33,650 nt of DNA. Source: Clostridia bacterium (GTDB lineage: Bacteria > Bacillota > Clostridia > Oscillospirales > CAG-382). Under the pieces are notes generated by a model, which made no database searches, had not been told where the DNA came from, and worked only from the letters and a program-made list of their open reading frames with translations. Both the position numbers and the translations under genes were made by a program. Within the stretch, counting starts at the first letter, position 1. Each line of letters opens with the position of its first letter. Positions 4,482 through 26,122 of the stretch are shown piece after piece. The stretch lies in contig JAFYUY010000018.1 in NCBI GenBank assembly GCA_017549405.1, positions 1 through 33,650 on the forward strand. Reading direction: 5' to 3'.

Positions 4482-4565
4482 ATAAGCGAATAATTCTTGT
4501 CGCAATGCCCAAAATATAACTGCTACATATTTATTACGAAACATAACCTGAAGGGAGAAAATACA

Positions 4566-5680
4566 TTGATAGTACAGCTGGAAGAAGCTCTGCAGAGCCT
4601 TGGCAGACTTGATGAAGAAATAAAGGAGCTTTTCGGTGCTCTTGAGATCGAGACCATGAGAGAAAAGGCGGCGGAACTCGAACAGATAACCTGCGAGCCG
4701 GGATTTTGGGATAATACCGAAAATACCCAGTCGGTCCTCACATCTCTTAAAAATACAAAGCAGACGGTGGAAAGCTATGAAAAGCTTGCGGAGGGTGCAG
4801 AATCGCTCCGTGCTCTCATTGAGCTTGCCATCGAAGAAAACGACGAAAGCTTTACTGAAGAAATACTCAGCGAGCTGAAGGCACTTGAAAAAGAAAAGGA
4901 TGCTCAACGTATCCGTGCGCTTCTTTCGGGCGAATATGACCATAACTCCGCAATCCTTTCCATCCATCCCGGCGCCGGCGGAACAGAGGCTCAGGACTGG
5001 GCAGAAATGCTTTACAGAATGTATTGCCGCTGGGCAGAACGTCGCGGCTTCAAGGTCAAGGTGCTGGATTACCTCGACGGTGAAGAAGCGGGAATAAAGA
5101 GCGTTACCATCCTTGTGGAGGGTGATTATGCATATGGCTACCTCAAGAGCGAAAACGGTGTTCACCGTTTGGTGCGCGTATCGCCTTTGACTCCTCGGGA
5201 CGTCGCCACACATCGTTCACCTCCGTGGAAATACTCCCCGAACTTGACGATAATACCGATATAGAAATAAAAGAAGAAGACCTTGAGATCACCGCTCACC
5301 GCTCCAGCGGTGCGGGAGGTCAGCACGTAAACAAGACCGACTCGGCAATAAGAATCGTCCACAAGCCCACAGGTATTGTGGTAGGATGCCAGACCGAGCG
5401 AAGCCAGCTCCAGAACAAGGAAACTGCGCTCAAGATGCTCAAAGCAAAGCTTGTGGAGATCAAGGAGCGCGAAAACCTCGATAAGATCGAAGATATCAAG
5501 GGCGAAAAGGCAAATATCGAATGGGGCTCTCAGATACGCTCCTACGTATTCATGCCCTATACTCTTGTGAAGGACAACCGCACAGGCTATGAAGACGGAA
5601 ATATCTCTGCGGTCATGGACGGAGATCTTGATGAGTTTATGAACGCATATCTTCGTGCCAAGGGCAACTTTATAAAATGA
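4566..5680 (+). CDS. prfB: Peptide chain release factor 2, interrupted by a frameshift at 5184-5188
   Basis: RF2 reads UGA and UAA stop codons and releases the peptide. The likely start is TTG at 4566, nine bases after a GGAG site. The first frame encodes the coiled-coil domain and domain 2 ([33 protein letters not shown]) and then runs into TAG at 5262-5264. The rest, with the catalytic GGQ loop ([15 protein letters not shown]) and the C-terminus ([18 protein letters not shown]), lies one frame back. Reading CCT at 5184 then TTT from 5186 restores [13 protein letters not shown], so one T appears missing in the TTT run. The usual +1 autoregulatory site (CTT TGA C) is absent: the equivalent place at 4641 reads CTT GAG. 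RF2 is normally essential, so a sequence or assembly error is the simplest reading; a real mutation or unusual recoding is possible. Confidence 0.9.
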
Positions 5681-7070: not shown

Positions 7071-10000
7071 ATGAAAAAGAGTTTTTCAAGGCTTTTCAGC
7101 GTAATTTTGGCGCTTGTCATGATACTGTCAATATGCAGTTTTCAGGTAAGTGCCACAACCGGAAAACTGTCGGTGGACACAACCGAATTCACTCTCGGTG
7201 AAGCCACATTCCATTTTAAAGACAGTGCTTCGTCAAAAGATTTTATTTCCATTTACTATGCAAACAATCCGGGCGGAACAAATTCCTCCAACGGTGAACT
7301 TGCATGGGCATATACAGTGCCTGCATCCGGTACTGTAACTGTTGACGATTTCAGCAAAAAGGATTGGGCTACAACTCCCGGCAGCTATCTTGCAAAATAC
7401 TGGAGTGCAGACCAATATAAAGTTTGCCTCGACACAGTATATTTCAGCGTGATCGAAGCTCTCCCCGAAGAAAAAGACATTTTCGAATACTATGTTAAAA
7501 AGAATGGTACAGGCGACGGACGTTCTGCTGAAGCTCCCGCAGGTACTATCGGAGATATCATAACAGCTATCAATGATGATGGTCACAGAGCAGGCAGTGA
7601 AGTTACCGTTTACGTTATCGATAGCGGTGAAGCTGCAAAGACTGTTATCGACAGCGACTGCGTTATCGGTTATAACAGAAGCGGTGTTGGTCAGGTTCCC
7701 TCGCATACCGCAACCATAAAGTACACAAGCTATGACGAGAACGTAACTTCCGTTATCGGTCACGTTAATTATCAGGGTTCCGGCAGCAACGCGGCGCATC
7801 TTCTCCTTGCAGGTCCTTCCAAGTTCGAGAATATCAACATTCTTGACATGAGAAACTCCAATAATGGCGGTACCGATATTTACCTCGGCAACCACAGCGT
7901 TTCTTTTAACGGTGTGAAGTTTATGGACCTTAAGGGTGCAAACCAGGGTACCATGGGCGAAATATTCTATCCTTCCTCCACCCATTTTTTACTCGGTCAG
8001 ACCAGAGGCAGAAAGATGGTTACCGGCGATGCGGAGGTCTATCTCGACAACGCAAGCCTTATCGGAGATTACATCGCACTTACAGGTTACAACGATAACA
8101 CCCAGACTCAGGGCATCACCGGAAACCTTACTCTTCGCATAGGCAGCGGTACTCTCAAGAATCTTTATATCAGCGGTACCAAGGCAGATGAAGTAGTTAC
8201 CGGTAATGCAAGTATTGTTTTCGGCAAGGGTGTTACGGTTTCAAGACTTCTTGCAGCATCCAACGGCAAAAACCTCATTGTAAACGGTGCACTCCAGCTG
8301 GTCAAGAACTATGGTGCTACCGTTCCCGCAGGCGCAACAGCGGATGCCACAGCACAAAGAGCATCCAGCGCTCCTTATTACGAAATCACCTCCATGTCTG
8401 ACGATCTTACCATTGATGTAACTGACACAGCAGGTAAATTCACAGTTTCCACAGATAAGATCGCATATGCCGCAACCGAAGATGGCAGAACTATCTACTA
8501 CGGTGAAGATGTTCTCAACATCGGCAAGGCAGGTAAATATGATGTTTATCTTGCAGACAGCGTTGAAGAAATCATTGCAAACGCACAGGAACCCTCCCAC
8601 ACTGTAGCATACCGCTTTGACGGATGGGATACAACAGTTGGCGGCGTTATCACTGCAAAGCTTACATACGTTGGCACAGATGGTGCAGCATACTATGTTA
8701 AGTTTGGCGGAACAGGCAACGGTCTTACTCCCACAACTCCTATCGGCACCGTAACTGATGCTATTGCTGCCATCAATCGTGCAGGCTATACCGCAGACGA
8801 TGAAGTTACAATTTATATAATGGATGCTTATGACATCCCTTACCAGGTATGTGCTGACGGCAGCAGCGCAGTTGGCAAGCCCACATATCAGGCAAATCTC
8901 AAGTCTGCTGTTACAACCTGGCTCAAAGGTGATGCGTATCCCGAAGCGTGGGAAGCAAAGCTTACTGTTACAAGCTACGATTACGAAGCAACAGGAGAAG
9001 CAACACATCTCATGTGGCATGAGGTTTATGGTAAGAACGTAAACCTTACTCTTCATGGTCCCATCGTGTTCAAGGACATCAACCTCATCAACCCCAGAAA
9101 ATATGACCGTGAATACTTTATCAACGGTTATGACGTAACTTTTGAAAACACAAAGTTCTATCATCTTAACACAGACTACCATAGCGGTAACGGTTTAAAA
9201 TATGACGGTATTCTTTACGAAGGTCATGCAAACTTAATGCTTTGTAACAGCGCTACGAATGTAGGCGGCGCAGGCGGATATATCAAGATCGATACACCTT
9301 TTACCGCCACAGGCAATCCTTACGGAATATGGATCGGCGGTACTTATGATGGCACATTCACAGACAGAGTAACGATCGATCTTGCAAACAGCGATATCAC
9401 AACCGACCTTTATTGGGGTTCAAAGATATTCACCTTTGAAAAAGGTCTTGATCTTATCGTCAATGGCGGTACTATAAATGCCATTTCCAATAAGGACGGT
9501 CAGATCAACATCAATAACGGCTTCCAGCTTATTGCAAATGCAGGAAACGCTATATTTGATGTTCCTTACACAAACAACGTTGTTGTTTCCGGCGGTGAAT
9601 GGCTGATCAAGGTTGACTCCAACTATATGTTTATCCATCCTACCGATGTTGCAGGTACATACACTGTTGACGAAGGTTTATATGCGGTTGCCGGAGACGA
9701 AGAAACAGGTGCAACTTATATTGCAGAAGGCACCCTCGTTCTTCCCGAAGGCACATACAATGTAACTTCCGTACCCAAGGCAGAGCTTGAAAACCTTAAG
9801 GTAAACGTTACATTCGATGGAGTTGCCGCAGATGGTATTTTCCTCAAGGGCTATTCCGTTGCACTCCCCGCAAAGAATAATACTCCCGTGGCTGAATTCC
9901 TCGGTTGGGAACTTAACGGTCAGGTTTACAAGGATAGTTACAACATTCCTGCAAACTCCGGTGACCTTGCGTTCGTATCCAAGTGGAGCGGCTATGAAGA

Positions 10001-12737
10001 TACAACAGTCATCTACCTCGATGCTGCGGCAGGTAACGATTCCAACAACGGTGCATCCGTGGCCACAGCAGTTAAAACTCTTGCAAAAGCGTTTGAAATT
10101 GCAAACACAAAGTCCGAAGGCACAAAGAAAGTAGTTGTTATCGGCGAGATAGAAGTTTCCGGAAAGATGCCCGCAAACTCCTCACGCATCATACTCACAG
10201 GCGATGGTACAGGCAATTCCGTATTCGATCTTTACAACGACTGTATCTACCCTGCAGGAGATATCACATTTGAAAACCTCAAGTTTACACACACAACATC
10301 CGGCGGCGGTAAGGTATTCTGTACCGATGATTACCATGTGATCTTCGGCGAAGGCCTCACTGTTGACAGCGATTTCCTTGTACGTATCGGTGGTTATGAC
10401 CACAGCAAGGTCGGAGCTGTTTCCGCAACATTCTTAAGCGGTACATTCGGCACGGTTGAGATCGGTCATTTCTGGATGCAGAACAACCGCGCAAACGTTC
10501 CTTCAGCAAATGTTGTTGTTGATGGTGCCAACATTTCAAAGTTCTATTTCACCTCCAACAGCTGGGATGCCAAGCATACCGGTTCCAATTACACAGGTCC
10601 CGTTAAGATCCACGTAAAATCCGGCAGAGTTGGTGCTATTGAAACTCAGACCAGCTCCGAAAACGGAAGACTCTATGCCGAATTCCAGGATACCGTTCAG
10701 ATAATCATCGATGACGGCATCACAACCAACGTTGACAGCGACTTTGCCGCAGCAGCAAAGGGAGCATGGGTTCTCAACGTAGCAAAAGAAGACGGTGCAA
10801 GTGTAGAATTCGGTGAAACTGCAGGCACATTCAAGGTAAACGGCACAAAGACCGCCCTTGCAACTGCAGAAAACGGCGCTCAATTCGCATCCACAAACGG
10901 TGTTCTTAGCCTTGCGGCAGGAACTTATGATATTGAATTTTCTGATATGATCTATTACATTAACAACGGTGAGCAGATCACTGTATACAGCGACTGCACC
11001 ATCGACCTTTCCACAGTTAAGCACACAGAAAAAGAAGGCAAGGAATTCATCGGCTGGTCCAAGAATGGTGAAGGCTGTGCACTTGTCGGCGCTCACAAGG
11101 CGGGTGACATCATTACTGCAAATTATGTAGACTTCAAGTCTTACGATGCTGAAACAAAAACCGGCGACTTCTTCATCAAGGGCGCTCAGATGAGAACATC
11201 GGGCGAACAGGGCTTGCGTTTCATCGTAGAAAAGAAGAACTCCTTTGCAAATGCACTCCCCAATGTTACTGAATTTGGTACTATCGTACTTCCCACAGAA
11301 CTCACATGGGGCCGTGATATGTTCATCGATCAGGCTCAGGTTGCTGAGTGGACATGGGATTCCGAAACAAAGCTCGTATTTACTCCCAAATCAACAAACG
11401 GATATACTCCCGCAAAGGTTGTGGGCGAGAAGCTTTACGCGAAGACTTCCGATGCTGTTCAGTACACACTCTGCATCACAGGAATAACACCTGAAAAGTA
11501 TTACAGATACTACTCCGTAAAGGCATATATCAAATATAAGGACCTTAACGGTGTTGAACACGTGCTTTACTCCGATTATTACCAGACCAACCTCTACAGA
11601 GTTGCACTTGCAGCTCTTGAAGCAAACGAAACACCCACAGAGGTATTTGAAGGTATTAAGGAATACGTTGAAGTTGACCGCAAGGCAGCTTACATGGCAG
11701 AAAACTACGATACCAGAAAGCTTCTTTCCGGATATCCCACCACAGCAGATAAAGATCCCAACCATGCAATGTATCAGATGGCAAACGGCATGAAGATCAG
11801 AGAAGTTGTGATCGATTCCGGCACGGGCGGAGATGCGGTTGAAATCGCTCACTTTGCCGATACTCACCTCAACTATATCAATCAGAAGGATATGGACCTC
11901 GGCGATATCAACACTCTTTCCACATACCGTGGAAGAAGCTGGCTGAGAAACGGTTCCTCTGTTCCCAACATTTCCAACGCTATGGAATATGCAAGCTTCT
12001 TTGATAAGGCGGTTATTACCGGTGACGTAATGGACTACTTCTCATGGGGCTGCGCAGAGATCATGCAGAAGATGATCGTTGACCAGTCTTACGGCAAGGT
12101 TCTTATGGCTATGGGTAACCACGAGCCCGCAGAACGTATGCAGGCGGATATGTCCGGTCTTTCCGACAAGTACACTCTTGAGCAGAAATACGAAACACTC
12201 CAGGAACTTTGGACAAATGATATCTACTATCATTCCGAGATCGTCAAGAACGATGAAGGTACCGAAAAGGTAATGATAGTTGTTATCGATAACCAGCGCG
12301 ATAGGTACTGGGGCGATAAGCAGGCAGAACCTTTTGCAAGAGATATTGCGATCGCACGCGAAAAGGGCATTCCCATGATCATGTTCCAGCATGACCCCAT
12401 ATGTACCAGAAATCCCGCTGAAAAGAAGGCGACATGGTTCTATGAAGTTGGCGACGGCAGCGGTATCCCCTGCGATATGTCCAACTCCTTTGCAGGTAAG
12501 CCCGGTTCCGATGCAGACACAATGAAGGTTTATAACCTCATTGTTCAGAACCCTGATGTTATTAAGGGCGTATTCTGTGGTCACTGGCACAATCATATGT
12601 ACACAGAGATCCTTGCTCAGAACGCAGACGGTTCGTTTATGACAGATGCTAACGGCGATTACGTTGTAATTCCTCAGCATGTTGTAACTGCAAACGCTTA
12701 CGGCAAGGGTAATGCAATAAAGATTACTATCAAGTAA
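7071..12737 (+). CDS. Large secreted protein: three beta-helix modules and C-terminal metallophosphoesterase
   Basis: This 1888-residue protein begins with a Sec signal peptide (about 1-28, cleavage after VSA). Three modules open with the same type of sequence: YYVKKNGTGDGRSAEAPAGTI (near 136), YYVKFGGTGNGLTPTTPIGTV (near 540) and IYLDAAAGNDSNNGASVATAV (near 980). Each continues as a beta-helix with a GTLKNL/TFGTVEIG-like rung pattern. Short FDGWD/FLGWELNG segments resembling InlB-type B-repeats separate them. A further domain (about 1370-1510, GAQMRTSGEQGLRFIVEKK) precedes a calcineurin-like phosphoesterase with all metal motifs: D1597-x-H1599, GD1652, GN1683-H1684, H1774 and GHWH 1837-1840. 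It should therefore be active on a phosphoester outside the cell. No SLH, dockerin or LPXTG anchor is visible. The substrate is unknown. Confidence 0.85.
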   Translation: MKKSFSRLFSVILALVMILSICSFQVSATTGKLSVDTTEFTLGEATFHFKDSASSKDFISIYYANNPGGTNSSNGELAWAYTVPASGTVTVDDFSKKDWATTPGSYLAKYWSADQYKVCLDTVYFSVIEALPEEKDIFEYYVKKNGTGDGRSAEAPAGTIGDIITAINDDGHRAGSEVTVYVIDSGEAAKTVIDSDCVIGYNRSGVGQVPSHTATIKYTSYDENVTSVIGHVNYQGSGSNAAHLLLAGPSKFENINILDMRNSNNGGTDIYLGNHSVSFNGVKFMDLKGANQGTMGEIFYPSSTHFLLGQTRGRKMVTGDAEVYLDNASLIGDYIALTGYNDNTQTQGITGNLTLRIGSGTLKNLYISGTKADEVVTGNASIVFGKGVTVSRLLAASNGKNLIVNGALQLVKNYGATVPAGATADATAQRASSAPYYEITSMSDDLTIDVTDTAGKFTVSTDKIAYAATEDGRTIYYGEDVLNIGKAGKYDVYLADSVEEIIANAQEPSHTVAYRFDGWDTTVGGVITAKLTYVGTDGAAYYVKFGGTGNGLTPTTPIGTVTDAIAAINRAGYTADDEVTIYIMDAYDIPYQVCADGSSAVGKPTYQANLKSAVTTWLKGDAYPEAWEAKLTVTSYDYEATGEATHLMWHEVYGKNVNLTLHGPIVFKDINLINPRKYDREYFINGYDVTFENTKFYHLNTDYHSGNGLKYDGILYEGHANLMLCNSATNVGGAGGYIKIDTPFTATGNPYGIWIGGTYDGTFTDRVTIDLANSDITTDLYWGSKIFTFEKGLDLIVNGGTINAISNKDGQININNGFQLIANAGNAIFDVPYTNNVVVSGGEWLIKVDSNYMFIHPTDVAGTYTVDEGLYAVAGDEETGATYIAEGTLVLPEGTYNVTSVPKAELENLKVNVTFDGVAADGIFLKGYSVALPAKNNTPVAEFLGWELNGQVYKDSYNIPANSGDLAFVSKWSGYEDTTVIYLDAAAGNDSNNGASVATAVKTLAKAFEIANTKSEGTKKVVVIGEIEVSGKMPANSSRIILTGDGTGNSVFDLYNDCIYPAGDITFENLKFTHTTSGGGKVFCTDDYHVIFGEGLTVDSDFLVRIGGYDHSKVGAVSATFLSGTFGTVEIGHFWMQNNRANVPSANVVVDGANISKFYFTSNSWDAKHTGSNYTGPVKIHVKSGRVGAIETQTSSENGRLYAEFQDTVQIIIDDGITTNVDSDFAAAAKGAWVLNVAKEDGASVEFGETAGTFKVNGTKTALATAENGAQFASTNGVLSLAAGTYDIEFSDMIYYINNGEQITVYSDCTIDLSTVKHTEKEGKEFIGWSKNGEGCALVGAHKAGDIITANYVDFKSYDAETKTGDFFIKGAQMRTSGEQGLRFIVEKKNSFANALPNVTEFGTIVLPTELTWGRDMFIDQAQVAEWTWDSETKLVFTPKSTNGYTPAKVVGEKLYAKTSDAVQYTLCITGITPEKYYRYYSVKAYIKYKDLNGVEHVLYSDYYQTNLYRVALAALEANETPTEVFEGIKEYVEVDRKAAYMAENYDTRKLLSGYPTTADKDPNHAMYQMANGMKIREVVIDSGTGGDAVEIAHFADTHLNYINQKDMDLGDINTLSTYRGRSWLRNGSSVPNISNAMEYASFFDKAVITGDVMDYFSWGCAEIMQKMIVDQSYGKVLMAMGNHEPAERMQADMSGLSDKYTLEQKYETLQELWTNDIYYHSEIVKNDEGTEKVMIVVIDNQRDRYWGDKQAEPFARDIAIAREKGIPMIMFQHDPICTRNPAEKKATWFYEVGDGSGIPCDMSNSFAGKPGSDADTMKVYNLIVQNPDVIKGVFCGHWHNHMYTEILAQNADGSFMTDANGDYVVIPQHVVTANAYGKGNAIKITIK

Positions 12738-19157: not shown

Positions 19158-19362
19158 ACCGCCCGGAAATTATTTTTCCACATATATTATATATATAAAA
19201 TCAAAGCATGGCACGGAACAAAATCAAAAATACTGCGTCATATATGTTGTTACCGCAAAAGGCGGCAACAAGTATACACAGCGATTGTTTGCGCATACAG
19301 GGGGGTCCCCGCTTTGCAGGGGCGTGCGTGCTTTAACACATACTGTTACAAAAAAACGCGCC
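19158..19362. other. Intergenic region between divergent genes, upstream part
   Basis: No gene is seen. It holds an imperfect hairpin TTGTTACCGC/GCGGCAACAA (about 19243-19268), a C/G-rich stretch (19301-19325) and one isolated GTTACA (19345-19350), 20 bases upstream of the paired motif. AT-rich sequence near 19180-19200 may hold the -10 box of the minus-strand gene, but no good -35 box pairs with it. Confidence 0.4.
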
Positions 19363-19381
19363 ATGTTACAGTTGTGTTACA
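19363..19381 (+). promoter_or_regulatory. Paired GTTACA motif upstream of first SLH gene
   Basis: The sequence is ATGTTACA, two bases, TGTGTTACA. The two GTTACA units are 11 bases apart, one DNA turn. The motif ends 15 bases before the -35 box. The same motif with the same spacing occurs before the second SLH gene (22696-22714). It is likely a binding site for a shared activator, or a retained duplicated promoter. Confidence 0.65.
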
Positions 19382-19396
19382 AACACTCAAAAGGTA

Positions 19397-19425
19397 TTGC
19401 AAAATTTGCGATTGTGTATTATTAT
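19397..19425 (+). promoter_or_regulatory. Promoter of the first SLH gene
   Basis: TTGCAA (19397-19402), 17 bases, TATTAT (19420-19425). The leader is about 73 bases, ending in an AGGAGG ribosome site at 19492-19497. Confidence 0.8.
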
Positions 19426-19505
19426 ATCAGTGTAAGCAGAACGGGTGGCATCTAAAATGCTTTCCGTATCATGCTACATAAAAAATTTTACAGGAGGATT
19501 TCCAA

Positions 19506-22500
19506 ATGAGAAAGACAACAAAGCTTCTCTCTCTCGTACTTGCGGCTCTCATGCTCGTTAGCATGTTCACAATTTCCGCAGGTGCAAAATTCGATGACGT
19601 TTCTGTTGAAGATTCTGCTCTTTACGATGCAGTTGAACTTCTCAACACTCTCGGCGTAGCTAAGGGTACCACAGAAACAACATTTGGCCCTGGCGAGAAC
19701 GTTACTCGTCAGCAGATGGCAGCTTTCATCTACAGACTTATGAAGGCAGGCCGTAGCGCAGAAGGCGGTACAAACGATTCCGGATTTACCGACCTCGATG
19801 ATTCCACATTCTTCCACATGATCACTTGGGCTAGCCAGACCGGTGTTATCAAGGGAAGAAACGCTACAACATTCGACCCTAAGGGCGGTATCACTCTCCA
19901 GGACGCTTACGTAATGCTCGTTCGTGCTCTCGGTTACGAAGATGACACTGTTCTTCCTTATCCTTTCGGATACATCGATCTCGCTGAAGAAATCGGCCTC
20001 GATGAAAACATCCCTTCCGATGTTAATTACACAAGCACTCTTAACAGAGGCAACGTTGCAATTCTTCTTGCAAACGCATTCTACGCAGAAATGAACAAGA
20101 CTTCTGTTGAGTACAAGTTCATCTCTAACAAGTACACCGACGCTAACGGCGATCCTCAGATCACTTGGGCATACGCAGCAGTTGAAACTGCAGCTACAGT
20201 TGCTAAGGACATCTTCGGTGTTGTAGAAGAAACCTTCAAGGTTAAGGCTACAAACAACTACACAATGGCTGGTTATTCCGCTGTTACTGAAGACGAAGTA
20301 GAAATGCTCGTTGGTAACAGAATTGATGCAGACGGCAAGACAGTTAACACTAACGAAGAATGGAAGCTCGCAGACTTCGGTCTCGAAGGCAAGTCCGATG
20401 ATTACTTCCTCGCTGACATCACTCTCTTCGTTAAGAAGGACCCCGAAGGCATCGTTAAGGATGACGTTGTTGTTGCAGCTAAGTCCAACCTCGTTAAGAA
20501 GATTGTTGCAGCTTCCGATATCGTTATCGACAGATCCACAAAGACAGATGCTAAGTACTATGACGGTGGCGTTAAGTCCAACACTGCTGATAAGGTTATG
20601 ACAGGTCTCATCTCCTTCGGCGGCATTGATGCTTACCTCGACGCTGTTGCAGCTCCTTACGCATACAAGTCTCTCGGTCTCTACGGCAACAACAAGGCTG
20701 CTGTTGACTTCATCACTCTCAACTCCGTTACTAACGAAGAAGGCGTAGCTAAGTTTGTTTATGCAAACACAGGCCTCAACTTCGACGGTGACTTCGACAC
20801 ACTCTCTGGTAACAACGCTTACGAAACTCTCAACGATAACTTCGCAACTGCATTCGGTTACGTTTACAATGATGGTCTCTACGAAGCAGAAGTATACGAC
20901 GCAGATGGCGACGGCTACGCTGAATACGTATTCTTCAAGCAGTACGACTTCATCAAGATGTTCGACAAGAACACCAAGTACATCGGTCTCACTTCCACAA
21001 TCACCGAAAAGGATAAGACAATCGTTGGCGGTGTTAAGAAGGAAGACATCGTTGTTGTAGGCGACTGGAACGACGGCGACGCAGTTCTCGTTTACGCTTT
21101 CGATAACAACGGCTCAACTAACATTGCTACAAACTACGATTACATCGAAGTTAAGGAAGCTATCACTTCCATCGAAACAAAGGCTAAGACAAAGAAGACA
21201 AACGCTAACGGCGCTGATGTTTACACATTCACCACAGGTGAAACTGTTGACTACACTGACTACGCTGACAAGATCGTAGGCGGCGCTCGCAACGATGCAT
21301 TCACTCTTGGCAACAACACAATCATCTGGATCAAGGGCGACGTTCTCCTCTACACTTCCGCAGTATCTACAAGCAACTTTGACGCTACTGCAAACTACGC
21401 TCTCATCCTTCCTATCGACGCTACCACAACTCCTGTGACAACAATCAAGGTTGTTGACAGAGTTATCGACGGCGAATTCGTAGAACAGTTCTACGTAAAG
21501 GCTCTCGTTGACGGTACCGTTAAGACAGTTCTCCTCGGCGAAGCTGTTAACGCATACGCTAACCCCATCGGCTTTGCTGCTGATTCTAACCTCAACACAA
21601 TCAAGGTTAAGGAAGCTGCTGACGCTAAGACTCTTATCGACACATACTTCCTCAACAAGTTCGCAACTTACACCACAAACGACGATGGTTCCTTCAACTT
21701 TACCCAGACTCAGTTCAACGGCAGCATGAGCTCCAACCTCGACGCTACCGCATATGTAACTGCTACAAACGGTAACATCGACCACGTTGCAAGTGCAGTT
21801 TATAAGCTCACTCTCGATGGTACACAGTACCAGGTAGCTCTCCAGGATTACTCCAAGGTTGTTATCAAGTCTAAGGACGATGACAACGAAGATGTTTACA
21901 CATCTTACGATGCAGCTACTCTCGGCAGAATCGAAAACACCAACCTTACAGGCGTTAAGATGATCCTTGTTAACAATACAAAGGGTAACATCGAAAACGT
22001 TGGTATCCTCTATGCAGAACTCGTTGGCGAATTTGGTTCTCCCACAGCTCTCGACTACAGAGTAATCATTTCTTCCTACGAAGAAAAGGCCGGCAGCACT
22101 ACTAAGAACTATGTAGAGCTCTTCAACCTTGTTGATGGCACAACCGAAACAGTTCTCGCTTCTTCCGCTCTCGCAACCGCAGGTATCGCAAACAACAAGA
22201 TCGTTGAAGTTAGAGAAGATGGCAAGGCATACGCTATTACAACTCCTGCTGCTTCCTTCGTTCAGAACAAGATCTTCAAGAACGCGTTCACAACTGCTAA
22301 CGCTACCTACGATTCCGGCATGAAGCTCCTCACATTCGTAAACGATGCAACTTATATGTACTCCATCACCGACGAAACAACCTTCATCTACTATGAAGAT
22401 TCCAACGGTGAAAAGGAACTTGCAGATGTTTCCATCCTTACAAACAAGGGTAACACCTACAACGATAAGTTCAACGATTATGAAAACAGTCAGACAGGTG

Positions 22501-22607
22501 CATTCGACATCTACGTAATTGCTGACAACGATCCTACAGATTACAACAGCAACGTTAAGATCGTTAAGCGCATCATCGTTTGCCCCACAGGTAAGCTTGT
22601 TGCTTAA
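19506..22607 (+). CDS. SLH-domain surface protein, probable S-layer or major cell-wall protein
   Basis: This 1033-residue secreted protein has signal peptide 1-27 (cleavage after SAGA) and three SLH domains: FDDVSVEDSALYDAVELLNTLGVAKG (28-80), FTDLDDSTFFHMITWASQTGVIKG (about 97-145) and PYPFGYIDLAEEIGL...RGNVAILLANAFYAEM (about 156-200). SLH domains bind pyruvylated secondary wall polymers. The remaining about 830 residues are beta-rich, with few Cys, and contain one calcium-type loop DADGDGYAE (465-473). Codon use is extremely biased (CTC, AAC, GAC, AAG, GTT, GCT), as in the most abundant proteins. The gene has its own promoter and terminator. Its neighbour downstream is a paralogue. The name of a specific S-layer protein cannot be given. 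Confidence 0.9.
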   Translation: MRKTTKLLSLVLAALMLVSMFTISAGAKFDDVSVEDSALYDAVELLNTLGVAKGTTETTFGPGENVTRQQMAAFIYRLMKAGRSAEGGTNDSGFTDLDDSTFFHMITWASQTGVIKGRNATTFDPKGGITLQDAYVMLVRALGYEDDTVLPYPFGYIDLAEEIGLDENIPSDVNYTSTLNRGNVAILLANAFYAEMNKTSVEYKFISNKYTDANGDPQITWAYAAVETAATVAKDIFGVVEETFKVKATNNYTMAGYSAVTEDEVEMLVGNRIDADGKTVNTNEEWKLADFGLEGKSDDYFLADITLFVKKDPEGIVKDDVVVAAKSNLVKKIVAASDIVIDRSTKTDAKYYDGGVKSNTADKVMTGLISFGGIDAYLDAVAAPYAYKSLGLYGNNKAAVDFITLNSVTNEEGVAKFVYANTGLNFDGDFDTLSGNNAYETLNDNFATAFGYVYNDGLYEAEVYDADGDGYAEYVFFKQYDFIKMFDKNTKYIGLTSTITEKDKTIVGGVKKEDIVVVGDWNDGDAVLVYAFDNNGSTNIATNYDYIEVKEAITSIETKAKTKKTNANGADVYTFTTGETVDYTDYADKIVGGARNDAFTLGNNTIIWIKGDVLLYTSAVSTSNFDATANYALILPIDATTTPVTTIKVVDRVIDGEFVEQFYVKALVDGTVKTVLLGEAVNAYANPIGFAADSNLNTIKVKEAADAKTLIDTYFLNKFATYTTNDDGSFNFTQTQFNGSMSSNLDATAYVTATNGNIDHVASAVYKLTLDGTQYQVALQDYSKVVIKSKDDDNEDVYTSYDAATLGRIENTNLTGVKMILVNNTKGNIENVGILYAELVGEFGSPTALDYRVIISSYEEKAGSTTKNYVELFNLVDGTTETVLASSALATAGIANNKIVEVREDGKAYAITTPAASFVQNKIFKNAFTTANATYDSGMKLLTFVNDATYMYSITDETTFIYYEDSNGEKELADVSILTNKGNTYNDKFNDYENSQTGAFDIYVIADNDPTDYNSNVKIVKRIIVCPTGKLVA

Positions 22608-22635
22608 TTGTTCAAAAACCTTATAAAGATTTTAG

Positions 22636-22664
22636 CACCCGGCAGAAATGCCGGGTGTTTTTTT
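22636..22664 (+). terminator. Terminator of the first SLH gene
   Basis: A perfect 9-bp stem CACCCGGCA/TGCCGGGTG (22636-22644 with 22649-22657) with a GAAA tetraloop is followed by seven T. Confidence 0.95.
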
Positions 22665-22695
22665 GCATATATGTGGATGAGTAACATAAAATTAT

Positions 22696-22714
22696 ATGTT
22701 ACAAATGTGTTACA
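22696..22714 (+). promoter_or_regulatory. Paired GTTACA motif upstream of second SLH gene
   Basis: ATGTTACA, two bases, TGTGTTACA, identical in arrangement to 19363-19381 and also ending 15 bases before the -35 box. An inverted half-site GTAACAT lies just upstream (22681-22687), giving a GTAACAT/ATGTTAC inverted repeat. Confidence 0.65.
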
Positions 22715-22729
22715 TTTCACTTTTAACTG

Positions 22730-22758
22730 TTGATATTTTTGTGCATTGTTGTTATAAT
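22730..22758 (+). promoter_or_regulatory. Promoter of the second SLH gene
   Basis: TTGATA (22730-22735), 17 bases, TATAAT (22753-22758). The leader is about 108 bases. It can form a hairpin at 22780-22811 (GGCGA/TCGCC outer and GTGCC/GGCAT inner pairs) and a second at about 22823-22847 (GGATAT/ATATCC), before the AGGAGG site at 22859-22864. Confidence 0.85.
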
Positions 22759-22873
22759 GTTTATGATAAATGGAGTATAGGCGATATTTGTGCCCTTTTG
22801 GCATTTTCGCCGTTCTGTTTACGGATATCCGAAAAGATCGTATATCCAAAAAAATCACAGGAGGCATAATCTT

Positions 22874-25800
22874 ATGAGAAAATTAGCAAAGTTCTTATCT
22901 ATGGTTATTGTCGCTGCAACCCTTGCAAGCCTTTCCACAATCACATCTTCCGCTGCAACGTTTACGGATATTTCCTCCAAAAACGAAGCTCTTCAGGAAG
23001 CTGCTGAGATCCTCAACAACCTTGGCATTGCAAAAGGTACAGGCGAAGGAACCTTTAGCCCTAAGGACAAAGTAACACGCGAACAGATGGCGGCATTCAT
23101 GTACCGTCTTATGAAAGCCGGTAAAAGCGTTGAAGGCGGCGATAATGTTTCGGGATTTACCGATCTTAAAGACCCCACCTTCTACTATATGATTTCCTGG
23201 GCAAATCAGTCCGGCATCATTAAGGGTCGTTCTGCCACACAGTTTGACCCTAAGGGAAAGATCACTCTTCAGGATTGCTACACCATGATGGTGCGCGCTC
23301 TTGGTTATGAGAACTACGAAACCATTCCCTATCCTTATGGATACATAAACATCGCTGAATCGCTCGACCTCGATAAAAATGTGAAAGACAGCATTGCTTA
23401 TACAGACGAGCTTACCCGTGGAGATGTGGCTGTTATTCTTTACAACGCTCTCTATGCTCACATGAACGAGACATACACCGTAAATGTAATGCCTCCTCCG
23501 GAAATGTACAGCACAAACACTGCGCTTACTCCCATGACCAAAGAACTTCCTGAGACCGTTTGGCACAAGATCTTCAATGTAACGGAAGTTACCCGCCGTG
23601 TTGTTGCAACCCCTAATTTTGCTGTAGACCTTTCCAAGATCGACTCTGTTCTCAAGGCAGGCAACTCCGAGTATGCGGTTTATAAGCCTACAGGTGTTGA
23701 AGCGCCCGACGTTCCTCTTATATACACAGCTGCAGTTTGTGTAGAAGATGAAATTTACGGCACAAAAAGACTTGCAAAAGAAGAAAATGCATACAAATTC
23801 GCAGATCTTGGTCTTTCCGGCAAAGCTGATGACTACTTCCTTAAGGATCTTACCATGTATATCAATCCCGAAGGAAAAGTTCTTGCTTGTAAGGCAGACG
23901 GTAAAACAGGCTCCGGCAGCATTTCTTTCTCGTATCTTTCCGGTACCGATAAATATAAGTACATCAAGAATTACACCGATGGCAGCACCAGCACTACCAA
24001 GATCCGTAACGGTACTGTAGGCATCGGCGATGCCAAGGCTTACTTCTACAACAAGCCTAACGATATAAACACATATGCGGTTACCCTTTGTCCCACTGAA
24101 CGCGATGACGATGGCAGACTTACTTATACCGCAGGTTATATGTGGTACGGTGAAGCGCCTTCCTCGCAGTTCACATATGAATTCCCCTACGTTGAAGCTA
24201 CTAAAGTGCAGTTTAACATCGCACAGTCTTCTAACGATACACTTCTTGCCCACATTGCAAGTACTGCTACTAACAGCGGCAGATACTTCTGCGATTACTT
24301 CGACACAAACGGCGACGGCATCATTGAATACGTTAATGTTATGCCTATGACATGGGGTCAGATCGTTGTTCAGTCGGGAGACAGAAATTCCACAAAGGCT
24401 CTGCACACAGGCGATAGCAAGTATCGTGCAGCATGGAATGCTTCCACCAGATTCCCCACCATCTACATCAACGAAGACACAATAGTTGAAGGCGGTTCTT
24501 ACGAAGACGGCAAGCTTGTATTTGCATATGTTTCCGGTCCTGCAAACTATGTTCGCATAGCATCCGATGATGTTAACAACGGAATCGGTAACTTCACCTC
24601 CACTATTGTTAAAAAGATCTATCAGAAAAACGGAGCTAGTGCAAATAATGATTGGCGTGGTGACAACCAGCAGTCCGTGTTTGAAAACGGCATTACTCTT
24701 GGCGCTTGGCAGTCAGGTAACAGAATCGTTGGTCACGTTAATTTCGAACGCACAGGTCTTGTTGCTATTTCCACCGATAAAACTGCGAGTGATGGTTTTT
24801 CCGGTAGCTTCCAGAGTGCAACCAAGAATGTCGGAACATCCCTGGAGGTTTACCACCATGGCAATCAGCCTCTCTGGGCAAAAACTGTTGCTGCCGACGA
24901 CCTTGTAAATGTTGGTGAAGATTACGCTATCATCAAGTATGCCGATAAGAATGCAGGAAAGGTAGTATTTGAAGCCGGCGGTATTGAACAGGATGCTTCC
25001 CTCACATACTCCAACCATGTTCGCGCATTTATCGGCGGCGAATATAAAATCGTAAGCATTGCAGATACCTTTAAGGATTCTTCCGGAAACATCGTTTCCC
25101 AGAACGACGCTTACTTCAACAATAACAACCTTGTGGGTGTTCTCAGTACCTACACCGTTGAGGATGACGGCGAATACGTTTTCAAACCCCTCTCCTACAA
25201 GAAGGGCAATCTCGCAGATCCCGATGACGATGCTATCCTCTACATGACCGAGGTCACAGAACCCGTAAGCCTTGAAAAGTATTACGATATTCTTTACAGA
25301 TTCGTTCCCGGTTATTCTGCAAGTTCTATCCCCGCAGGTCTTATTCCCGCAGGCGTAAATCACTTCAAGCTTGACGAAAACTTCAAGATGGTTGTAAACT
25401 ATATCGATGCTGAGGGATACTCAGACTACGCTATTTACGATTATAACAACCAGCCCGATTTCGACGTTGATGAGCTTGAATTCTCCAAGACCATCGCTAT
25501 TTACCGCAACAATACCGAAAGCACCACCACCGAATACCTTAACTTCATCTATGCTGAAGTTGGCGGCGAGCTTGTTATTGACAGAGACGACAATGCTAAG
25601 TTTGGTATTATCATATCCAATTACAAGGAAGTTGACAACAAGGCTAATGTTATTACAAAGTACACCATCATCAATCCTATGACAGGCGAAGAAATCGCAG
25701 ATGTTGCTACTCACACATCAACCACCGAACTTCCTAAATTCAATATGTATGAACTTACCACTGAAGGCAAGATCAATACAGGCAGAACAGGCCATGTTGC

Positions 25801-26122
25801 TGACCTCAATGCAGGCAGTAATGCACTCCATACTCTTGCTGAATATCACCGCGAGAGTGGTCTGTTTACAATGAATAAGGCTGATGGCAGCACAGAAACT
25901 GTTATTATTGATGCCGATACTATAGTTGCAGTATTCGACAGAGAAAACGTTACATACGAAATTGAAGATATGTCTATCTTCGATATCGAATATGTTGATG
26001 ATACCGACTTTAAGTATCATACTCCCGGTGTAACAAACAAGACATTTGCTGTTATCACTCCCGGTTCCAAGGGCAACGATGATTTCTATCATGCAAGCGT
26101 TATCATTGTTGTAAGAGGTTAA
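22874..26122 (+). CDS. Second SLH-domain surface protein, paralogue of the upstream gene
   Basis: This 1082-residue protein has a signal peptide ending near SSAA (residues 25-28) and three N-terminal SLH domains that match the upstream protein closely (FTDISSKNEALQEAAEILNNLGIAKG, FTDLKDPTFYYMISWANQSGIIKG, PYPYGYINIAESLDL). The long C-terminal part is more diverged but shares the order of features. This includes the calcium-type loop DTNGDGIIE (477-485), in the place where the first protein has DADGDGYAE, and a similar ending (VIIVVRG against KRIIVCPTG). The ATG at 22874 follows AGGAGG by nine bases; the frame is open further upstream, but an earlier start would put basic residues before the signal peptide. 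Codon bias is milder than in the first gene, so it is probably a less abundant surface protein. Confidence 0.9.
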   Translation: MRKLAKFLSMVIVAATLASLSTITSSAATFTDISSKNEALQEAAEILNNLGIAKGTGEGTFSPKDKVTREQMAAFMYRLMKAGKSVEGGDNVSGFTDLKDPTFYYMISWANQSGIIKGRSATQFDPKGKITLQDCYTMMVRALGYENYETIPYPYGYINIAESLDLDKNVKDSIAYTDELTRGDVAVILYNALYAHMNETYTVNVMPPPEMYSTNTALTPMTKELPETVWHKIFNVTEVTRRVVATPNFAVDLSKIDSVLKAGNSEYAVYKPTGVEAPDVPLIYTAAVCVEDEIYGTKRLAKEENAYKFADLGLSGKADDYFLKDLTMYINPEGKVLACKADGKTGSGSISFSYLSGTDKYKYIKNYTDGSTSTTKIRNGTVGIGDAKAYFYNKPNDINTYAVTLCPTERDDDGRLTYTAGYMWYGEAPSSQFTYEFPYVEATKVQFNIAQSSNDTLLAHIASTATNSGRYFCDYFDTNGDGIIEYVNVMPMTWGQIVVQSGDRNSTKALHTGDSKYRAAWNASTRFPTIYINEDTIVEGGSYEDGKLVFAYVSGPANYVRIASDDVNNGIGNFTSTIVKKIYQKNGASANNDWRGDNQQSVFENGITLGAWQSGNRIVGHVNFERTGLVAISTDKTASDGFSGSFQSATKNVGTSLEVYHHGNQPLWAKTVAADDLVNVGEDYAIIKYADKNAGKVVFEAGGIEQDASLTYSNHVRAFIGGEYKIVSIADTFKDSSGNIVSQNDAYFNNNNLVGVLSTYTVEDDGEYVFKPLSYKKGNLADPDDDAILYMTEVTEPVSLEKYYDILYRFVPGYSASSIPAGLIPAGVNHFKLDENFKMVVNYIDAEGYSDYAIYDYNNQPDFDVDELEFSKTIAIYRNNTESTTTEYLNFIYAEVGGELVIDRDDNAKFGIIISNYKEVDNKANVITKYTIINPMTGEEIADVATHTSTTELPKFNMYELTTEGKINTGRTGHVADLNAGSNALHTLAEYHRESGLFTMNKADGSTETVIIDADTIVAVFDRENVTYEIEDMSIFDIEYVDDTDFKYHTPGVTNKTFAVITPGSKGNDDFYHASVIIVVRG

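Follow-up and report, generated by a model that had tools for sequence, protein, structure and literature searches.

A WalR-box-like direct repeat as a putative clade-wide operator of S-layer-type genes in Clostridia

Introduction

To our knowledge, the matching of S-layer subunit output to expansion of the cell wall is poorly understood. An 11 bp tandem geometry is a known signature of OmpR-family dimers. For the Bacillus subtilis regulator WalR (YycF/VicR), the consensus used in PMC9210968 is TGTWAH-N5-TGTWAH. In Staphylococcus aureus, WalR sites upstream of the -35 box activate (PMC10746227). PMC9210968 gives six S-layer genes (cwp2, 5, 12, 16, 17 and 66) that are raised by overexpression of WalR in Clostridioides difficile, and cites WalRK work in Bacillus anthracis for a suggestion concerning the S-layer. 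The kind of switch proposed below is thus already known, WalR control of S-layer genes having been reported in C. difficile (PMC9210968). In the literature searched, no paper was found that treats an S-layer gene and a promoter together with a response regulator and the SLH domain, nor one that describes the WalR box as an SLH operator throughout a clade. Here, we analyse a 33,650-nucleotide stretch of Clostridia DNA, referred to in full as the window, in which two S-layer-type genes are each preceded by such a box.

Results

The two SLH genes and their promoters

The features of the locus are as follows (window coordinates).

19344..19350, + strand: extra half-site TGTTACA, 20 bp 5' of the SLH1 box
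19363..19381, + strand: operator ATGTTACAGTTGTGTTACA of SLH1, core TGTTAC-N5-TGTTAC at 19364-19380
19397..19402, + strand: -35 box TTGCAA of the SLH1 promoter, 15 bp past the operator; orthologues have the same gap
19420..19425, + strand: -10 box TATTAT of the SLH1 promoter, 17 bp spacer
19506..22607, + strand: SLH1, secreted S-layer-type protein of 1033 amino acids; AGGAGG ribosome site at 19492-19497
22636..22664, + strand: terminator-like hairpin CACCCGGC-6-GCCGGGTG followed by 7 T, 3' of SLH1 (found by eye)
22681..22687, - strand: inverted half-site ATGTTAC (GTAACAT on the + strand), 5' of the SLH2 box
22696..22714, + strand: operator ATGTTACAAATGTGTTACA of SLH2, core TGTTAC-N5-TGTTAC at 22697-22713
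22730..22735, + strand: -35 box TTGATA of the SLH2 promoter, 15 bp past the operator
22753..22758, + strand: -10 box TATAAT of the SLH2 promoter, 17 bp spacer
22874..26122, + strand: SLH2, secreted S-layer-type protein of 1082 amino acids; AGGAGG ribosome site at 22859-22864

The SLH domain (Pfam PF00395) was recognized in SLH1 (E = 5.2e-13) and SLH2 (E = 1.3e-13) near the N-terminus (residues 29-72 and 29-73, respectively), and N-terminal hydrophobic signal-like segments were identified by eye in both proteins. With a predicted signal peptide and an SLH domain, both are classed as S-layer proteins of the SLH type. The genes are tandem paralogues with approximately 59% identity over the first 200 residues. 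The terminator-like hairpin after SLH1 suggests that SLH2 has its own transcript, and two separate transcripts would explain why each gene has its own promoter and operator.

The paired motif had been picked out in a sequence-only reading of this DNA. When the window was read directly its coordinates all proved to be correct, with two copies of ATGTTACA-N2-TGTGTTACA, one at each SLH promoter, and the geometry described (half-sites with a period of 11 bp, 15 bp to the -35 box and a 17 bp spacer) was the same at both. The extra half-sites that it listed are both present but do not form a general feature. Only that of SLH1 recurs, in three of the five genomes of the genus, with TGTWACA at the same -20 offset from the SLH1 box in G001 (TGTAACA) and G002; the inverted half-site at 22681 is not conserved in the upstream regions of relatives. 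Because the TGTTACA at 19344 recurs in G001 and G002, it may be an accessory site. As derived from the positions of the promoter boxes, and not from a mapped start, the repeat would have its midpoint at approximately -59 to -60 relative to the expected start of transcription, which is the position of a class I activator.

An Rfam search of the window returned no RNA element. The leader of SLH2 begins with a sequence (AAATGGAGTATAGG or a close variant; window 22768-22780 and L044-L047) that is conserved across the genus. Elsewhere in the window, prfB (release factor 2; 4497-5680) is split between two reading frames by a shift of one base near 5185 (CCTTTGAC). Joined, its two parts give a single normal protein, and the shift may therefore be an assembly error. 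Positions 7071-12737 encode a secreted protein of 1888 residues, the sole recognized domain of which is a C-terminal calcineurin-like phosphoesterase (residues 1592-1841).

Frequency of the box in the window and genome

The draft genome searched comprises 1.69 Mb and is 59% complete, so that further copies of the box could be missing. Exact TGTTAC-N5-TGTTAC was found twice in it, both times at the SLH promoters, and the reversed control was not found; the random scatter through the genome that the sequence-only reading had named as a reason to abandon its proposal was therefore not observed. Allowing up to three mismatches, the window contains three matches compared with 0.12 expected, the third being the second site on the opposite strand. 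Allowing up to two, the whole draft genome contains 111 matches compared with 138 for the control, which is background level. In G001, G003 and G007, most sites with one mismatch are intragenic.

Conservation in relatives

The exact core was counted 83 times in 149 relatives, compared with 29 for the reversed control, and in the genera with the SLH pair core and control stand at 24 to 1. The exact box is present in all 14 family members that have the SLH pair and in five of the 49 that do not (Fisher 3e-10). In these 14 members the box is retained at all 27 readable SLH-pair promoters (22 exact, five with one or two changes), which is the outcome favourable to the proposed operator in the alignment of orthologues that had been suggested, and the five altered boxes keep the same position. 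Each orthologue set has conserved flanks of its own, which differ between the SLH1 and SLH2 sets; the earlier statement that the sequence between the motif and the -35 box is unconserved is right for the paralogues, whereas among the orthologues of each gene this sequence is partly conserved. Upstream of SLH1 in G002 and G003 the unit of box and promoter is doubled, with the copies approximately 113 bp apart.

A strong sigma-A promoter lies 3' of the box at 45 of the 76 distinct sites in relatives. At 41 of 76 distinct exact sites in the 149 relatives, a sigma-A promoter is placed with a gap of 14-15 bp and a 17 bp spacer, a geometry expected at approximately 0.1% for random positions or shuffled tails. 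SLH-type genes from further families within the order (L034, L056-L058, L227, L235, L240, L241 and others) have the same layout; these genes were recognized by eye from their proteins. Among cultured relatives, Intestinimonas butyriciproducens bears the box at an SLH-type gene (L113). Judged by these comparisons, the box is a selected operator that is clade-wide at SLH genes and, as had been proposed, not just a product of duplication, being kept across genera with a constant spacing to the promoter.

The box was also observed in other settings. An exact box lies 97 bp 5' of a gene that was judged by eye to be CdaA-like (diadenylate cyclase) in three genomes (L059, L242 and L243) from a different family within the order. 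In G119 and G147 (L218, L220-L222) an exact box and promoter, with a gap of mostly 14, precede several lipoprotein-like genes that are not of the SLH type.

Scan of species genomes

When 84,980 species genomes were scanned for the box plus promoter, at least 120 stretches were obtained, from which 80 loci were examined; the counts are lower bounds and the 80 loci are perhaps not a random sample. The loci examined are overwhelmingly from Clostridia, many of them named Oscillospiraceae, and approximately 13 of the 80 listed are outside Bacillota or unnamed, with no SLH-like genes among them. SLH was found in 36 of 73 downstream proteins among the matches listed, and 54 of these 73 matches have a spacing of 15/20 or 14/20 (bases from box to TTG/bases from TTG to -10), although 15 gap-spacer combinations were allowed. 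A few listed downstream genes belong to classes typical of wall regulation: NlpC/P60, M23 with G5, two D-Ala-D-Ala carboxypeptidases (S11) and LytR-CpsA-Psr (LCP).

The same box and promoter accompany a secreted MKRKIA.LLA... family (L095, L126, L127, L129, L132, L148, L152 and L164). No Pfam match was obtained for L095 and L127, which were tested singly, and the family is possibly another S-layer-type protein. In Gastranaerophilales (L130, L136 and L153) a box with a 12 bp gap precedes genes for PilT-like ATPases (T2SSE matches) and is perhaps a site of RpaB, a relative of WalR.

Candidate regulator

The SLH boxes match TGTWAH-N5-TGTWAH exactly, as direct repeats with a 5 bp gap, and are located upstream of the -35 box as is characteristic of WalR sites at activated genes. 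A walRK-like pair of adjacent genes is encoded in the genome, with the regulator at G000:C134:11567-12289. The top NCBIfam match of this regulator is YycF (288.9 bits, with the second-best family, RpaB, at 239; equivalog cut-off 340) and that of the kinase, which is truncated at the locus end, is WalK (289.5 compared with a cut-off of 725); both proteins are therefore below the NCBI equivalog cut-offs. For the DNA-binding domain of the regulator five solved WalR/VicR domains rank first, and its recognition helix is GD[LV]RTVDVT. G007, which is 98% complete and in which each of the two SLH promoters has an exact box, encodes three OmpR-family regulators. Only one is WalR-like; the DNA-binding domains of the remaining two match non-WalR regulators better.

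With a relaxed WalR consensus, G003 and G007 gave no peptidoglycan hydrolase gene preceded by a promoter of this geometry, so that the classic WalR regulon could not be seen in the family. Either the other sites of WalR are looser, or WalR has been turned to the S-layer, or another regulator acts at the boxes.

Discussion

WalR is the best candidate for the protein that binds the SLH boxes, and we consider this assignment likely. In the proposed mechanism, the sensor kinase WalK would phosphorylate WalR, an OmpR-family response regulator, a dimer of which would bind each 11 bp direct repeat. From the box, 5' of the sigma-A promoter, WalR would recruit RNA polymerase to each SLH gene in the manner of a class I activator, and the supply of S-layer subunits would thereby track peptidoglycan synthesis. 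Binding by WalR, activation on binding and the link to wall growth are all inferred by us from sequence comparisons. The conserved box, with its constant spacing to the promoter, fits a WalR site, and the operator is therefore a probable link between growth of the cell wall and production of the S-layer. More tentatively, and with slightly less than even confidence, we propose that WalR has been rewired in this clade, with its strongest and nearly invariant sites at S-layer genes rather than autolysins, so that sensing of wall growth sets the supply of subunits.

Another OmpR-family regulator, either the MtrA/PhoB/SaeR-like type L060/L338 or the PhoB-like type L063/L339, could bind the box and activate the SLH genes instead. 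Both types are present in G000 and G007, regulators such as the MtrA and PhoB types also use 11 bp direct repeats, and the lack of a peptidoglycan hydrolase with the site in G003 and G007 would fit a regulator other than WalR. Their recognition helices (RTVDVH and RTLDTH), however, differ from the RTVDVT of WalR, and WalR is not the best match of either DNA-binding domain. The PstS promoters, moreover, have TTTACA repeats in genomes that have TGTTACA at SLH-type genes: those of G135 and G146 bear TTTACA-N5-TTTACA and that of G129 a similar TTTACA-type repeat (by eye). A PhoP/PhoB box was rejected on these grounds, the phosphate regulator being an unlikely binder of the SLH boxes, and we regard a different family member as unlikely overall.

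The sequence-only reading had attributed the site to an undescribed activator. The position is indeed activator-like, but an undescribed regulator is not supported, as the box fits a published consensus exactly and the genome carries genes for a WalRK-like pair. As tandem repeats of 11 bp are moreover typical of OmpR-family dimers, recognition by an unrelated activator that is not a response regulator is very unlikely. That WalR binds as a repressor or modulator appears highly improbable: WalR is able to repress in other Firmicutes, but in S. aureus a position 5' of the -35 box is associated with activation (PMC10746227), and S-layer genes go up with WalR in C. difficile (PMC9210968). A non-functional leftover of a recent promoter duplication, which the tandem paralogy of SLH1 and SLH2 might suggest, is rejected with near certainty, because the flanks of the paralogues differ while each orthologue set keeps its own, so that the shared box is not a mere copy, and because the box is found at a constant distance across genera and at unrelated SLH genes in other families.

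With WalR as the preferred binder, an operator common to the SLH promoters of many uncultured gut Clostridia would provide a testable link from WalK to the S-layer and extend the expression-profiling result from C. difficile. The box would also serve as a simple sequence signature for the main surface-protein genes in unannotated genomes.

Compared with known systems, the SLH boxes are most like the WalR box of B. subtilis, in that both half-sites are exact, the gap is 5 bp, the period is 11 bp and the site is upstream of the -35 box. They differ from it in their targets (SLH surface proteins here, autolysins there), in half-sites that are mostly TGTTACA compared with the looser consensus TGTWAH, and in a gap to the -35 box that is fixed at 14-15 bp. 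WalRK of C. difficile likewise links WalR to the output of S-layer genes; there the link comes from expression data (PMC9210968), whereas here it comes from a conserved box and the genes are of the SLH type. The PhoP/PhoB box shares the arrangement of an OmpR-family regulator on an 11 bp direct repeat, but the repeats at the PstS promoters of relatives are TTTACA rather than the TGTTACA of the SLH genes. The HLR1 element of cyanobacterial RpaB, a regulator related to WalR, is also a tandem repeat of the TTACA type, but belongs to another lineage and to other target genes, and its repeat spacing differs from 11 bp.
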